Source: an uncultured Enterovibrio sp.
GTDB taxonomy: Bacteria; Pseudomonadota; Gammaproteobacteria; Enterobacterales; Vibrionaceae
Length of the DNA stretch: 32,861 bases
Assembly: GCA_947040595.1 (NCBI GenBank)
Contig: CAMRBZ010000009.1
Location: 1-32,861 of the forward strand
Reading direction: 5' to 3'
Shown: piece by piece, positions 9,730-32,861 of the stretch
How positions within the stretch are numbered: the first letter of the stretch is position 1
How the letters are laid out: each line of letters begins with the position of its first letter
Program-made: the position numbers and the translations under genes
Notes under the pieces: generated by a model
Told to the model about the DNA's origin: nothing
Database searches by the model: none
The model's input: only the letters and a program-made list of their open reading frames with translations

Positions 9730-10509
9730 TTAAATCGTAAAACGTGTGCCAACATTGTCTCCGCTAAAAAGCGAAAGTAACTTTTCAGGATAACGCCAAC
9801 TGGCGATCTCAATGGAACGCTCTAGCGCTTTCACGGCCTCAAAGGCCGTTTTAACTTTCACTACCATTCCATCCGATATCACACCGCTTTCAATTAACTT
9901 CAAGGCGCTTTTTTCATCAAGAGCGGGTATTAACACCCCTTTACCGTCCAAAACCCCGCTAACATCCGATAAAATGACCAGTTCAGCGTCCAGCGCAGCC
10001 GCCACCGCCACTGCCCCTTGATCCGCATTCACGTTCATCAGATCACCCTTTGCATCAATGCCGACAGAACTGATGATGGGTAAATAATTCATCTCTAATA
10101 CACTCTGAATAAAATGCCCATCATTCGGACTGGCTTTGCCTGTATGTCCCCACAGAGGATCCAAAGCTTCAATCTTGCACAACCCCCCATCAGAGAGGCT
10201 CAACCCGATGGCCTCAATGCCGCTTTTCATCGCGCTTGCTTGTAAGTGTTTATTGGCAGTGCCCGCTAAAGCACCCACGACAAACGGAAGATGTGATTTA
10301 GGCGTCACTCTGATCCCGTTCTTTTTTTCGCTTTTAAAGCCAAGCCTTTCTAATACATCATCAACGAGGTAGCCCCCACCATGAACAATCACTAAAGGCC
10401 TGCAAACTGCGGCACGGTATTTAGTGATCCCATTGAAAAAATGCGCCAAGGTTTTTGAATTAGACAAGGCGGCTCCTCCCAACTTGATGACCAAAGGACG
10501 TGATCCCAT
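9730..10509 (-). CDS. argB: Acetylglutamate kinase
   Basis: 259 residues. It phosphorylates N-acetylglutamate, the second committed step to ornithine. It has the amino-acid-kinase fold: [10 protein letters not shown] near the N-terminus, [11 protein letters not shown] near residue 40, the N-V-N-A-D-Q-G-A nucleotide region and D-G-x-V-x-K-V-K-T-A near the end. The ATG at 10509 is chosen over upstream codons because it has AAGGAG eight bases before it and matches the family start. The upstream extension lies in a repeat-element remnant. It is of the short, arginine-insensitive type, lacking the N-terminal helix of feedback-controlled kinases. Confidence 0.96.
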
Positions 10510-10521
10510 TATTTCGCTCCT

Positions 10522-10580
10522 TATATCCGTCGCCGTTGAAACTTCATGGGTGTTGGCTACGCGCATTTACTTTGGATATT
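10522..10580 (-). repeat. Internally deleted repeat copy between argC and argB
   Basis: One end reads TATATCCGTCGCCGTTGAA and GGGTGTTGGCTACGC; the other end is ACTTTGGATATT, which matches the TATCCAAAG end of the copy at 17034. The centre is gone. It ends four bases before the argC stop, and its edge supplies the approach to the argB ribosome-binding site. Confidence 0.65.
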
Positions 10581-15790: not shown

Positions 15791-17033
<1,243 letters not shown>

Positions 17034-17161
17034 TATCCAAAGTAATTCAAGGTACGCGCCTGCGCCAAGCGAGTGAAGCCCCTGTGCATAGAGATGGACT
17101 CTGTGATTGGGCGCAGCGAGCGTAAGGCAACACCCAGGCCGCATTAAAGGCAAGGGGTATA
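17034..17161 (+). repeat. 125-bp repeat copy that ends metL
   Basis: Begins TATCCAAAGTAATTCAAGG and ends GCATTAAAGGCAAGGGGTATA. On the minus strand its outer edge supplies the codons Y-T-P-C-L and the TAA of metL. It is therefore an insertion or recombination junction inside the former bifunctional gene. Confidence 0.85.
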
Positions 17162-18565
17162 GCCGACAGAAAGTAAATCGACGGGAGATTTAACCTGAAA
17201 AAGAGCTTGATGCATTCGCATCACTAAGCGTTGAGTATTTATTTTTCGTAAAATAACCAAAATGCTCAAACCATTTTTAGACTCACAAATAAATTCAATC
17301 GGCTGAGCTGAAAGCTGCTGATAAAAAGCATGGCAATGAGCGGCGTTCAAGGTCACCCCCGCACCAACCGCAGCAATCATGCTGTATCCTTCCCTCAACC
17401 TCATTTCAACGGCCATCGCTGCATTTTGTAAATGATGAAGAACGCTGCTCACCATTTCGAGGGTATAAACCAATTGAATTCGCCTTTCCTCTTCACTGAG
17501 ACAAGACGCCAAAGGCTGTAACTGCTTTTGCATCAAAAAGGCATCAATATCTTGATGTGTACTGGCAAAATCGACTTCATTTGAAACACAGAGATCGAGC
17601 AAACACACGGAATCAACCGAGGTCATTATTTTTGCACCGCACTCTCCACTTTCAATACGTTCAATGCGCGTAGAGCCCGCTTCTGGGGCATAACTGCAAC
17701 GCAGATTCAAATCAATGCAGCTTCCTGCGATAGGCTGTAAGGTTCGAGTGTGTAAAACGCTCGCTCCCATGCGAGCAAGCTCTGCCGCTTCATCTATGTG
17801 AAGCCGAGACAATAAAGTGCTTTGTGGTACGATACGCGGATCAGCACTGTAAACACCCGCAACATCACTCCAAATCGTGACACAAGAAACCTGCGCCAAA
17901 GCGCCAATCACGGTTGCAGAATAATCAGAGCCATTACGCCCCAATAGAACCGTTTCACCTTGTGCATTTTGTGCCATAAAGCCTGTGATCACGACACGCT
18001 TTTTGCCACACTTAACTAACTGGTTTTGCAGTAAAGGCAAAGAAGCAAGAAAGTCAACTTCAGGCATAACACTGCGCTGCGCCCTTAAAAATAATCGAGA
18101 ATCACATTGAACAGCCGGCATATTTTCTTGGTTCAATAAAGCACAAAGCAAACGCGTAGACCAAACCTCACCAAAGCCTTGAATCCAAGCACGCAGAGGA
18201 TCATCCAGTAAAGAGCCTGCTGCTTTCTCGATGCCATCAAGATCGTCATACAAGGCGTCTAACAGTGCTTTTTTTTGCGAGAAACCCATCAAATTTTCAA
18301 TTAAATTCGCTTGATACTCACGTAAACTCGAGAGCGTTTCATAAGCTCTAGGGCTTTTTTTTTCAAACAAAGACAAGCATTCAATTAAGGTGTTTGTTGT
18401 TTTTCCCGCCGCAGAAACAATAATAAGATCAGTGACACCCGCGTACTTTTCTAACAAACTCGCCACACGTAGAAAAGCTTCGGGCGACGCCAAACTACTG
18501 CCTCCAAATTTATGTAACTGACGAGAAGGTGGATTAAAAAAACATTCAAGATCAGAGTTTTTCAT
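17144..18565 (-). CDS. metL: Aspartate kinase II (MetL), truncated: homoserine dehydrogenase domain lost
   Basis: 473 residues against about 810 for MetL. The aspartate kinase half is complete: HKFGGSSLA at residues 18-26, VVSAAGKTTN-type loop, G-F-M-A-Q-N...L-G-R-N-G-S-D-Y-S-A-T, the V-A-G-V-Y-S-A-D-P-R motif and a C-terminal ACT-like region. The motif style is MetL, not LysC. The protein ends VDLLSVGY-TPCL: VDLLSVGY is where the dehydrogenase's first Rossmann strand should begin, and the rest comes from a repeat element. It overlaps metB by 4 bp (ATGA), so they are co-translated. The kinase may still work; homoserine dehydrogenase must come from another gene such as thrA. It could alternatively be an inactive remnant. 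Confidence 0.9.
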   Translation of the reverse strand: MKNSDLECFFNPPSRQLHKFGGSSLASPEAFLRVASLLEKYAGVTDLIIVSAAGKTTNTLIECLSLFEKKSPRAYETLSSLREYQANLIENLMGFSQKKALLDALYDDLDGIEKAAGSLLDDPLRAWIQGFGEVWSTRLLCALLNQENMPAVQCDSRLFLRAQRSVMPEVDFLASLPLLQNQLVKCGKKRVVITGFMAQNAQGETVLLGRNGSDYSATVIGALAQVSCVTIWSDVAGVYSADPRIVPQSTLLSRLHIDEAAELARMGASVLHTRTLQPIAGSCIDLNLRCSYAPEAGSTRIERIESGECGAKIMTSVDSVCLLDLCVSNEVDFASTHQDIDAFLMQKQLQPLASCLSEEERRIQLVYTLEMVSSVLHHLQNAAMAVEMRLREGYSMIAAVGAGVTLNAAHCHAFYQQLSAQPIEFICESKNGLSILVILRKINTQRLVMRMHQALFQVKSPVDLLSVGYTPCL

Positions 18566-19728
18566 TGGCGTTTCTCTCTTACTTTATCAAAAGCTTTTTT
18601 TAAATCAGCAATCAAATCTATTTGATCTTCTAATCCCACAGAAAGACGCAAAAGCATGGCACTCAATCCTGCCTCAGCTTGCGCTTCATCCGACATGGCT
18701 CTATGGGTCATTGAAGCGGGATGACAAACAAGACTTTCCACTCCACCCAAAGATTCAGCTAAGGTAAACATCTGAAGTGATGAGAGAAAAAGCTCCAATT
18801 GTGCCTTTTCTCCCTTGAACTCAAAGCTCAACATGGACCCAAAACCCAATTGCTGCTTTTTCGCAATAAAGTGGCCTTTATGCTCGACTAAAGAAGGATG
18901 ATAAATCACACGGACCAAAGACTCATCTTTTAAATAACAAAGGACTGCCAATGTGTTTTTTTCGTGCTGGCGCATCCTTACGCTTAATGTCTTTAATCCA
19001 CGCAGAATCATATAACTATCAAATGCTGATCCCGTCGCACCAATGCAATTTCCCCACCATTTGAATTTTTCTTGTAAGGCAGGATCTTTGGCAATCAGTA
19101 CTCCCCCTAGCGTGTCAGAATGCCCATTAATGAACTTGGTCAAAGAATGCACCACCAAATCAGCCCCCAAGCTTAAAGGCTGCTGAAAGACAGGAGACAA
19201 AAAAGTATTGTCCACCCCAACCAAAGCCGAAACGGCATGTGCTTTTTTCGCAATTTCAGCAATATCAACCACACGAAGTAAGGGATTCGAAGGAGATTCA
19301 ATCCAAATGAGTTTTGGTTTTTGTTGAAGGACGGCCTCTAATGCTTTGTCGTCAGACTGATCAATAAAGCAGAGCTTAAAAGCCCCTTTTTTTGCATAAG
19401 ACTCAAAAAGACGATAAGTTCCGCCATAACAATCGACAGAGGCAACAAGCAAGTCTTCGGGTGACAATAAAGTTAAAACCAAATTGATGGCTGACATACC
19501 ACAGTTTGTCACCGTCGCACCGGCCCCTTTTTCTAAAGCGGCAAGCGCATCTTCAAGCAGGGCACGGGTTGGCTGTCCACCGCGCGCATAATCATAGGTG
19601 GGCAATTCACCCAAATGAGGAAACTGATAATTCGTTGATAAATAAATGGGCGGAACCACCGCATTATACTGTTTATCTGTTGCAATCCCCGCGCGTATCG
19701 CTATCGTGGCTGACTTCTTGTCATTCAT
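18562..19728 (-). CDS. metB: Cystathionine gamma-synthase
   Basis: 388 residues. A PLP enzyme that replaces the acyl group of O-succinylhomoserine with cysteine to form cystathionine, the first step of transsulfuration. The PLP lysine is K198 in HSLTKFINGHSD, the same position as in E. coli MetB. The C-terminal S-L-G-G-V-E-S-L and R-L-S-V-G-L-E signature is present, as is the N-terminal Y-x-R-x-x-x-P-T-R loop. Preceded by AGGGAAAG. First gene of metBL, divergent from metJ, and it reads from the shared operator of four met boxes. Confidence 0.96.
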   Translation of the reverse strand: MNDKKSATIAIRAGIATDKQYNAVVPPIYLSTNYQFPHLGELPTYDYARGGQPTRALLEDALAALEKGAGATVTNCGMSAINLVLTLLSPEDLLVASVDCYGGTYRLFESYAKKGAFKLCFIDQSDDKALEAVLQQKPKLIWIESPSNPLLRVVDIAEIAKKAHAVSALVGVDNTFLSPVFQQPLSLGADLVVHSLTKFINGHSDTLGGVLIAKDPALQEKFKWWGNCIGATGSAFDSYMILRGLKTLSVRMRQHEKNTLAVLCYLKDESLVRVIYHPSLVEHKGHFIAKKQQLGFGSMLSFEFKGEKAQLELFLSSLQMFTLAESLGGVESLVCHPASMTHRAMSDEAQAEAGLSAMLLRLSVGLEDQIDLIADLKKAFDKVREKRQ

Positions 19729-19794: not shown

Positions 19795-19826
19795 AGACGT
19801 CAACACATCTAGACGTCTGAAGTCCT
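19795..19826. promoter_or_regulatory. MetJ operator: four tandem met boxes
   Basis: Four contiguous 8-bp units read AGACGTCA, ACACATCT, AGACGTCT and GAAGTCCT. The MetJ consensus is AGACGTCT; the third unit is perfect, the first has one mismatch, and the second and fourth are weaker. Tandem arrays like this bind MetJ dimers cooperatively with S-adenosylmethionine. The array sits between metB and metJ, so it can control both. Confidence 0.92.
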
Positions 19827-19933: not shown

Positions 19934-20251
19934 ATGGCAGACTGGAATGGCGAATACATAAATCCTTACGCCGAACATGGAAAAAAGAAAAAACAAGTTA
20001 AAAAAATAACGGTTTCCATCCCACTGAAAGTCTTAAAAATACTGACAGATGAGCGCACCCGTCGCCAAGTCAACAATCTACGGCATGCAACAAACAGCGA
20101 ACTCCTTTGTGAGGCATTTTTACACGCCTACACAGGCCAACCTCTTCCTATGGATGATGATATTCAAAAAGACAAAACAGACACTGTCCCTGAAGAAGTG
20201 AAACGTATGATGAAAGAGCTTGGGCTTGAATTCAATGAAGAAGATCATTGA
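19934..20251 (+). CDS. metJ: Methionine repressor MetJ
   Basis: 105 residues, a ribbon-helix-helix repressor using S-adenosylmethionine as corepressor. The DNA-reading strand [20 protein letters not shown] is at about residues 23-42, followed by [23 protein letters not shown], which is nearly identical to the enterobacterial protein. GAAGGTGAACA precedes the ATG. It is divergent from metB across the met boxes and is thus autoregulated. The acidic C-terminal tail is slightly variable, as usual. Confidence 0.98.
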
Positions 20252-24652: not shown

Positions 24653-25051
24653 TTACTCCGCTGCTGCTTCGTCGTTTTCAGAATGCATTTCTGAATGATC
24701 GTCACGATCGTCACGACGTGGTGCGCGCTCTTCTTTAGCCTTCATCATGATAGATGGCTCAATGATAGCGACTTTAGTACGCATGATCATGTTACGGATC
24801 ACCGCATCGTTGAAGCGGAATTGGCTTTCCAATTCATCAACAACAGCCTGCCCAGCTTCTACGTTCATAAGAACATAGTGTGCTTTGTGCAGTTTATTGA
24901 TTGGGTATGCCAATTGACGACGGCCCCAATCTTCTAAACGGTGAACTTGACCGCCTGACTCATTAATAGAACCAGTGTAACGCTCGATCATGCCAGCAAC
25001 TTGCTCGCTTTGATCAGGGTGCACCATGAACACAATTTCGTAATGACGCAT
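24653..25051 (-). CDS. rpsF: 30S ribosomal protein bS6
   Basis: 132 residues. [16 protein letters not shown], then [14 protein letters not shown] and F-N-D-A-V-I-R-N-M are the S6 hallmarks. The last 25 residues are the acidic, variable tail that RimK extends with glutamate in enterobacteria; here it is rich in Asp/Glu but interrupted by Arg. First gene of the operon, with AAGGAG upstream and a leader hairpin. Confidence 0.98.
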
Positions 25052-25076
25052 AGGTTGCTCCTTACGGATTATTCAG

Positions 25077-25109
25077 CTTCCAAGCTGGCTCAGTCATCCA
25101 ACGGAAGCA
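25077..25109 (-). promoter_or_regulatory. rpsF leader hairpin (candidate S6:S18 site)
   Basis: On the minus strand GCTTCC-GTTGG pairs with CCAGC-TT-GGAAGC around a nine-base loop, with a two-base bulge. It ends about 25 bases before the rpsF start. S6:S18 autoregulates this operon in many bacteria by binding a leader stem; I cannot confirm the required CCG bulge here. Confidence 0.4.
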
Positions 25110-25209
25110 AGGAACGAATATAAAAGACTGAGAATTAGGAGGCGGGATAGTACTGAATTATTGCTCGAATAGCAATCACTATTCTAAAAAACAACACGAC
25201 AAAGAAGAA

Positions 25210-32320: not shown

Positions 32321-32369
32321 TTTTTAACCAGACACCCATATTAAAAACGCACGACTTATCTTCCGCGAT
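32321..32369 (+). repeat. Module A of the right-hand repeat patchwork
   Basis: TTTTTAACCAGACACCCATA then TTAAAAACGCACGACTTATC and TTCCGCGAT. The same module recurs at 32512-32570 and 32737-32794, and a 25-base stub at 32706-32730. Confidence 0.85.
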
Positions 32370-32372
32370 CGA

Positions 32373-32435
32373 GTTTTAACCAGACATATATGGACGTTCC
32401 GTAGAACGCAAGGTGTTTTTATCCCTCGGATACAA
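32373..32435 (+). repeat. Module B of the right-hand repeat patchwork
   Basis: GTTTTAACCAGACATATATG followed by GACGTTCCGTAGAACGCAAG and a TATCCCTCGGATACAA tail. It shares the anchor TTTAACCAGACA with module A, then diverges. CGTTC/GAACG forms a small hairpin. It recurs at 32797-32861. Confidence 0.85.
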
Positions 32436-32511
32436 TTCCCGCATGGGTTTTTCTGTTTCCTTTGCTTATTTCTCGTTTAATGAAGACTTAAAATGTGTTG
32501 CTCTGACAAAC

Positions 32512-32570
32512 GTTTTTAAGCAGACACCCAAATAAAAACGCACGACTTATCTTCCGCGATTAGACTTCAA
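32512..32570 (+). repeat. Module A, second copy
   Basis: Anchor reads TTTTTAAGCAGACACCC (C to G change), then ATAAAAACGCACGACTTATC and TTCCGCGATTAGACTTCAA. It ends 34 bases before the transposase start. Confidence 0.85.
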
Positions 32571-32603
32571 TGAAGCCATAGAATTAGCTGTTGGAGTCGT
32601 ACT

Positions 32604-32711
32604 ATGCCGCAACCTCGTAGAAGCCAAATCAGTCTTGAAGACACCCCTTACTATCACTGCTGTAGTCGCGTGGTTCGCCGCGCTTTTCTTTGTGGCGATG
32701 AAGCAGTTTAA
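32604..32711 (+). pseudogene. REP-associated (Y1, IS200-like) transposase, N-terminal stub
   Basis: 35 codons: MPQPRRSQISLEDTPYYHCC then SRVVRRAFLCGDEAV and stop. This is the well-known opening of the RAYT-type Y1 transposases of gammaproteobacteria, normally about 200-330 residues. The frame is cut at GATGAAGCA by the anchor TTTAACCAGACACCC, which supplies the stop. The H-x-H metal motif and the catalytic tyrosine are lost, so it is dead. GGAG lies nine bases before the ATG. These enzymes mobilise short palindromic repeats, which makes the surrounding modules of interest. Confidence 0.85.
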
Positions 32712-32794
32712 CCAGACACCCATATTAAAAATGAAAGTTTAACCAGACACCCATATTAAAAACGCACGACTTATCTTCCGCGATTAGACTTCAA
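32706..32794 (+). repeat. Module A, tandem stub plus full copy
   Basis: A 25-base stub (GTTTAACCAGACACCCATAT...) at 32706-32730 is followed, after six bases, by a full module at 32737-32794 ending TTAGACTTCAA. Confidence 0.85.
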
Positions 32795-32796
32795 CA

Positions 32797-32861
32797 CGTT
32801 TTTAAGCAGACATATATGGACGTTCCGTAGAACGCAAGGTGTTTTTATCCCTCGGATACAA
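32797..32861 (+). repeat. Module B, second copy, reaching the window end
   Basis: Anchor TTTTTAAGCAGACATATATG, then the same tail as 32391-32435 through GGATACAA. The element may continue past the window. Confidence 0.85.

Follow-up and report, generated by a model that had tools for sequence, protein, structure and literature searches.

Why does the metL gene of an uncultured Enterovibrio encode only the aspartate kinase half of what is otherwise a bifunctional aspartate kinase–homoserine dehydrogenase (AK-HSDH II), and what part did the mobile repeat at its 3' end play in the loss? The window, by which we mean the whole stretch of 32,861 nucleotides analysed, is contig 9 of a draft genome (G000; 3.6 Mb, 374 contigs, 98% complete) from a genus linked with fish hosts. 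An earlier note on this DNA had proposed that metL lost its homoserine dehydrogenase (HSDH) half at a repeat element, by recombination between two repeat copies, leaving a monofunctional kinase cotranslated with metB. The features on which the argument turns are the following.

15791..16675, minus strand: metF, intact
16732..16759, minus strand: ERIC end, truncated and opposite in orientation to the full copy at 17034-17161 (weak match, E 0.0033)
16798..16845, minus strand: second dispersed repeat, MITE-like, of which a truncated left end of about 48 bp is present (from the alignment of copies)
16846..17033: single-copy spacer stretch of unrecognisable origin, common to the window's genome and its nearest relative, G002
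17034..17161, plus strand: complete ERIC (nhmmer), whose outer edge gives metL its last five codons and stop
17144..18565, minus strand: metL, aspartate kinase half only (ORF of 473 aa)
18562..19728, minus strand: metB, cystathionine gamma-synthase, overlapping the metL start (ATGA)
19795..19818, minus strand: MetJ boxes ahead of metB (scored against three consensus boxes, 21 of 24 positions match)
19934..20251, plus strand: metJ, methionine repressor (NF003622, 200.7 bits)

Judged by its sequence, metL encodes an aspartate kinase that is complete, regulatory domains included, and no homoserine dehydrogenase. The product covers only positions 11-465 of the 810 in the AK-HSDH II profile NF007003 (E 2.8e-161), and its score of 538.7 bits lies below the family cut-off of 582. 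Pfam returns AA_kinase alone and no HSDH domain, and residues 18-456 align to residues 7-448 of E. coli AKIII, a monofunctional enzyme of 449 aa and known structure. The make-up is that of a monofunctional aspartate kinase, as the earlier note had predicted, with kinase and ACT domains and the conserved KFGG, GE and GRxGSDY motifs (here KFGGSS, GFGEVWS and GRNGSDYSAT, all intact). These alignments bear out the loss of the dehydrogenase half at the repeat edge. The further claim that the protein ends exactly where the second Rossmann domain should start is roughly right, but the frame may take in some 11 codons of the first HSDH strand (VKSPVDLLSVG versus AQRRIGLVLLG), in a stretch that is very degenerate. 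At its other end, the metL start overlaps the metB stop as the note had stated; since the same ATGA overlap occurs in relatives with a full-length metL, this arrangement is ancestral.

What is the repeat? We identify it as an ERIC element on the strength of its sequence. A profile built from 46 full copies matches 17034-17161 with an E value of 8.9e-29 (nhmmer), and the family consensus of 128 bp with TATACCC...GGGTATA ends agrees with the length of about 127 bp, the ends and the similarity to enterobacterial ERIC by which such elements are recognised. E. coli chromosomes match the repeat at 77% identity over 83% of the query (E 4e-14); these matches carry no annotation, and the name rests on length, ends and published descriptions. 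The metL codons at 17147-17161, together with the stop, fall within the profile match, so that the repeat's outer edge does supply the last five codons and the stop, as had been noticed. In the metL frame the ERIC consensus reads YTRRL*, the copy in the window YTPCL* and that of the nearest relative YSCRL*; an intact ERIC inserted at this position would thus itself end the protein. The copy at metL carries mutations at either end, and a TA target duplication is unreadable there.

A draft assembly of 374 contigs, rich in repeats, might join distant segments, and the earlier note had named such an artefact as grounds for discarding its reading. A scan for loci related to the window found one genome, G002 (MAG CAMRDW01), the nearest relative of the window's genome among those compared. 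It too has a short metL (open frame 479; MetL 95% identical at the protein level) that ends at an ERIC edge, and the 358 bp between repeat and metF (16676-17033 in the window, the interval being exactly as long as the note had given it) are 87% identical there. The two genomes represent distinct species (metL dS 0.22), and the same junctions with a diverged spacer recur in both. The gene order ppc-padR-metF-metL-metB-metJ is moreover that of the genome G027; with the ancestral order kept, the loss in metL is local. We therefore regard an assembly artefact as having a negligible probability. A full-length MetL is encoded by 13 further genomes of the genus, the nearest sister G004 among them.

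The spacer records what else disappeared. In relatives of the same genus, MetL has about 814 aa, and the metL-metF gap of 201-248 bp holds a terminator-like hairpin and MetJ boxes. The window's genome and G002 lack the roughly 1.05 kb that encode the dehydrogenase half, and likewise the terminator and the MetJ boxes before metF; only the final 13 bp upstream of the metF ATG match the relatives. Permissive tblastn and blastn searches of the 358 bp yielded chance-level matches only, so the observation that no dehydrogenase remnant survives there stands. Read in gene direction, the spacer consists of the full ERIC, the unplaced stretch, the MITE-like left end and the outer end of an inverted ERIC. 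This last element, of which about 52 bp are recognisable in G002, corresponds to the solitary repeat terminus reported at 16731-16754 and was recovered here as the weak profile match at 16732-16759 (E 0.0033). The two truncated repeats face each other, which places a deletion junction probably between them, at 16760-16797. The spacer as a whole was also considered as a mobile unit and rejected, being single copy apart from its two repeat fragments.

Could homologous recombination between two ERIC copies have removed the roughly 1 kb, as the earlier note suggested? ERIC sequence does lie on each side of the altered region, and a single ERIC at the junction could be the recombinant. The visible copies are inverted, a geometry that inverts rather than deletes, and both persist with about 270 bp between them; recombination of the metL repeat with the terminus at 16731-16754 thus fails as an explanation. 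A deletion between direct copies, one of which has since vanished, needs a copy that is not seen. Taken together, we consider ERIC–ERIC recombination improbable.

We favor instead, with reasonable though far from complete confidence, a succession of events that began with the insertion of an ERIC, a miniature mobile repeat of the non-autonomous kind. It would have landed where the dehydrogenase half of metL begins, closing the reading frame with a stop of its own five codons on. Deletion would later have removed the dehydrogenase half, by then untranslated, and with it the terminator of metL and the promoter of metF with its MetJ boxes; the repeat ends that remain in the spacer would be the mark of this deletion. 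The surviving 473-aa kinase would be made together with MetB under MetJ control, ThrA alone would provide homoserine dehydrogenase, and metF would now be read from the metB promoter. The last step draws on the contrast between the two sets of MetJ boxes: those upstream of metB are intact (two-box score 14/16), whereas ahead of metF no pair of boxes scores above 9/16, which is chance level, against 12-14/16 in relatives. With its own boxes and the terminator gone and the metB boxes in place, metF probably depends on the metB promoter. A promoter scan around metF, metL and metB found no more sites than in shuffled sequences.

The ERIC could also have been a passenger, inserted at or near the gene end after the dehydrogenase half had been lost by an ordinary stop or deletion. 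ERICs are extremely frequent in this lineage: the window has 13 matches in 32.9 kb (about 11.7 kb of it non-coding), and first-look candidates number 862 in the window's genome and 802 in G002, of which 40 were scored in each. At this density an ERIC edge would lie near any given gene end by chance in, roughly, a few percent of cases. A search for an intermediate among the compared genomes, in which metL would contain an ERIC and yet retain its dehydrogenase half, found none; this, with the abundance of ERICs, leaves some room for an insertion after the loss, and short MetL proteins elsewhere, described below, arose with no ERIC detected at metL. Against a late arrival, the metL frame runs straight into the ERIC and uses the very stop that the ERIC consensus carries in that frame, and only one of the 13 ERICs in the window overlaps the 3' end of an ORF. 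We therefore rate a passenger ERIC as unlikely, though it deserves a hearing, and the ERIC as the likely agent of the metL truncation in these two species.

The two species differ from the rest of the genus in their ERIC content. The element has expanded to hundreds of candidate copies in the pair. Five other genomes of the genus that were searched have hardly any, each giving one match at most. ERIC is also frequent in G027. Elsewhere in the window, an ERIC end at 10522-10567 reaches over the initial 45 bp of the argB ORF (9730-10566), and the true argB start probably lies further in than the ORF start. The other dispersed family, MITE-like and seemingly some 170 bp long, starts ATACCAATTCCA, ends near GGGATTGGTATTA and has many copies in both genomes, with copies in L043, L051, L084, L085, L087 and L091. 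The terminal part of the window (32323-32861) holds 47-nt direct repeats (TTTAACCAGACACCCATATTAAAAACGCACGACTTATCTTCCGCGAT and near copies) about 190-225 nt apart, as well as 62-nt direct repeats, and these run into the contig end. The sole Rfam match in the window is an RpsF leader at 25049-25131 (51.7 bits).

Is the kinase remnant maintained? Because the truncation is common to both species, all of their divergence postdates it. Over 465 codons the metL kinases differ by 60 synonymous and 26 nonsynonymous changes (dN/dS 0.11, with 0.19 for the neighbouring metB and 0.06 for metF); the last 15 codons give about 0.9 from very few sites. Divergence in the Enterovibrio-like lineage generally runs at about three times the rate of free-living relatives, and with thrA and lysC present a third aspartate kinase could in principle be spared, so that one might regard truncated metL as a decaying, functionless pseudogene. 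Yet the ratio of divergences G000-G007 to G003-G007 is 3.2 for the MetL kinase, no higher than the general run of its partners (MetB 2.8, MetF 3.7, ThrA 3.4), neither species has a frameshift or stop in the gene, and the catalytic motifs are intact. These comparisons, together with the low dN/dS, indicate that truncated metL is kept under purifying selection, and make a pseudogene very improbable. Its 473-aa protein would be expected to work as a monofunctional aspartate kinase. A retained role of MetL other than the kinase was also considered, since E. coli MetL is reported to be a weak prolyl isomerase as well (PMC7461557).

The window's genome retains thrABC, lysC and dapA, and the HSDH domain occurs once, in an intact ThrA of 819 aa followed by thrB and thrC. 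The search for thrA or a separate hom that the earlier note had recommended thus turned up ThrA as the sole HSDH, with no displaced HSDH gene found elsewhere in the genome; ThrA alone would supply homoserine dehydrogenase. The sister genome G004 (2.1 Mb) has the reverse pattern: its bifunctional MetL (L063) is the only homoserine dehydrogenase, and metB is broken into pieces. G013 keeps only ThrA.

How singular is a kinase-only MetL? In surveys of 197 genomes of the family and 159 of the order, MetL-type kinases nearly always occupy frames of about 800 aa. Clear kinase-only forms besides the pair are found in G027 (461 aa), G216 (481 aa), G217 (455 aa) and G342 (493 aa); the other short frames are frameshifts, internal stops or contig ends, and G302, G316 and G288 were left out. 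None of these four genomes has an ERIC at metL, and ERIC is consequently not a general requirement for a kinase-only MetL. The earlier note held that a relative with the same short metL and no repeat would refute its reading. Such short genes do exist in the four genomes, but they go back to independent losses and so do not speak against a role of ERIC in the pair. A tree test rejects a common origin of all short MetLs (p-AU 7e-130). It also rejects trees that group the pair with G027 (p 0.013), and likewise with G342 (p 0.006), where the long branches of G027 and G342 call for caution. This makes at least three independent losses, possibly four, as G027 and G342 may share one.

In G216 and G217 (1.0-1.1 Mb) and in G342 (1.2 Mb), no homoserine dehydrogenase was found anywhere in the genome and dapA is retained, which suggests that the kinase is kept there to feed the synthesis of lysine and cell-wall diaminopimelate. 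G027 retains ThrA; in its metF (L075 2220-3157), which adjoins the kinase-only metL, two frames meet near codons 27-30, through a frameshift or a sequencing error. Put together, MetL in Vibrionaceae and relatives would repeatedly shed its dehydrogenase half and retain the kinase, in one direction only, with the kinase serving lysine and diaminopimelate synthesis in the most reduced genomes and with an ERIC-borne stop and a merged operon in the Enterovibrio-like pair; we put this forward tentatively, as a combination about which we remain somewhat doubtful. If it holds, one of these losses made metB-metL-metF a single MetJ-controlled operon in the Enterovibrio-like pair.

What is the wider relevance of this locus? 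A fused enzyme has been undone in nature, cut at a domain boundary with the remaining half still under selection, and independent repeats of the same loss are available for comparison. A mobile repeat ends a protein at the edge of a functional domain, and a linked deletion probably alters how the next gene is regulated. Reduced genomes are already known to lose domains, and proteins with ERIC tails have been described before; what is of interest is that the kinase-only form has arisen repeatedly, and a limited search of open-access text found no description of a kinase-only MetL.

Compared with known systems, the locus shares with those encoding bifunctional MetL (PRK09466 / NF007003) an orthologous kinase half, the metJ-metB-metL-metF cluster and the ATGA overlap with metB, but lacks the entire dehydrogenase half. 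In its kinase and ACT domains and its length it resembles monofunctional LysC/AKIII enzymes of about 450 aa; unlike them, it descends from a fusion protein by secondary loss, and the genome has a separate LysC. Reduced amino acid pathways and evolution 3.5 times faster have been described in luminous Vibrionaceae fish symbionts with reduced genomes (Hendry et al. 2018, PMC6020299), a study that makes no mention of metL, homoserine or ERIC. The present lineage, with reduced amino acid pathways and a factor of about 3, is similar, whereas the repeats expanded here are of ERIC type and not full transposons. ERIC or RU-1 elements at protein C-termini have likewise been reported (Delihas 2007, PMC2759123), the tail of E. 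carotovora Tdh beginning YTRHT, close to the YTRRL of the ERIC consensus found here. In those cases, as in metL, a real protein takes its C-terminal residues from the edge of an ERIC; those proteins, however, retain their domains and gain a tail, whereas in metL a whole catalytic domain is gone.
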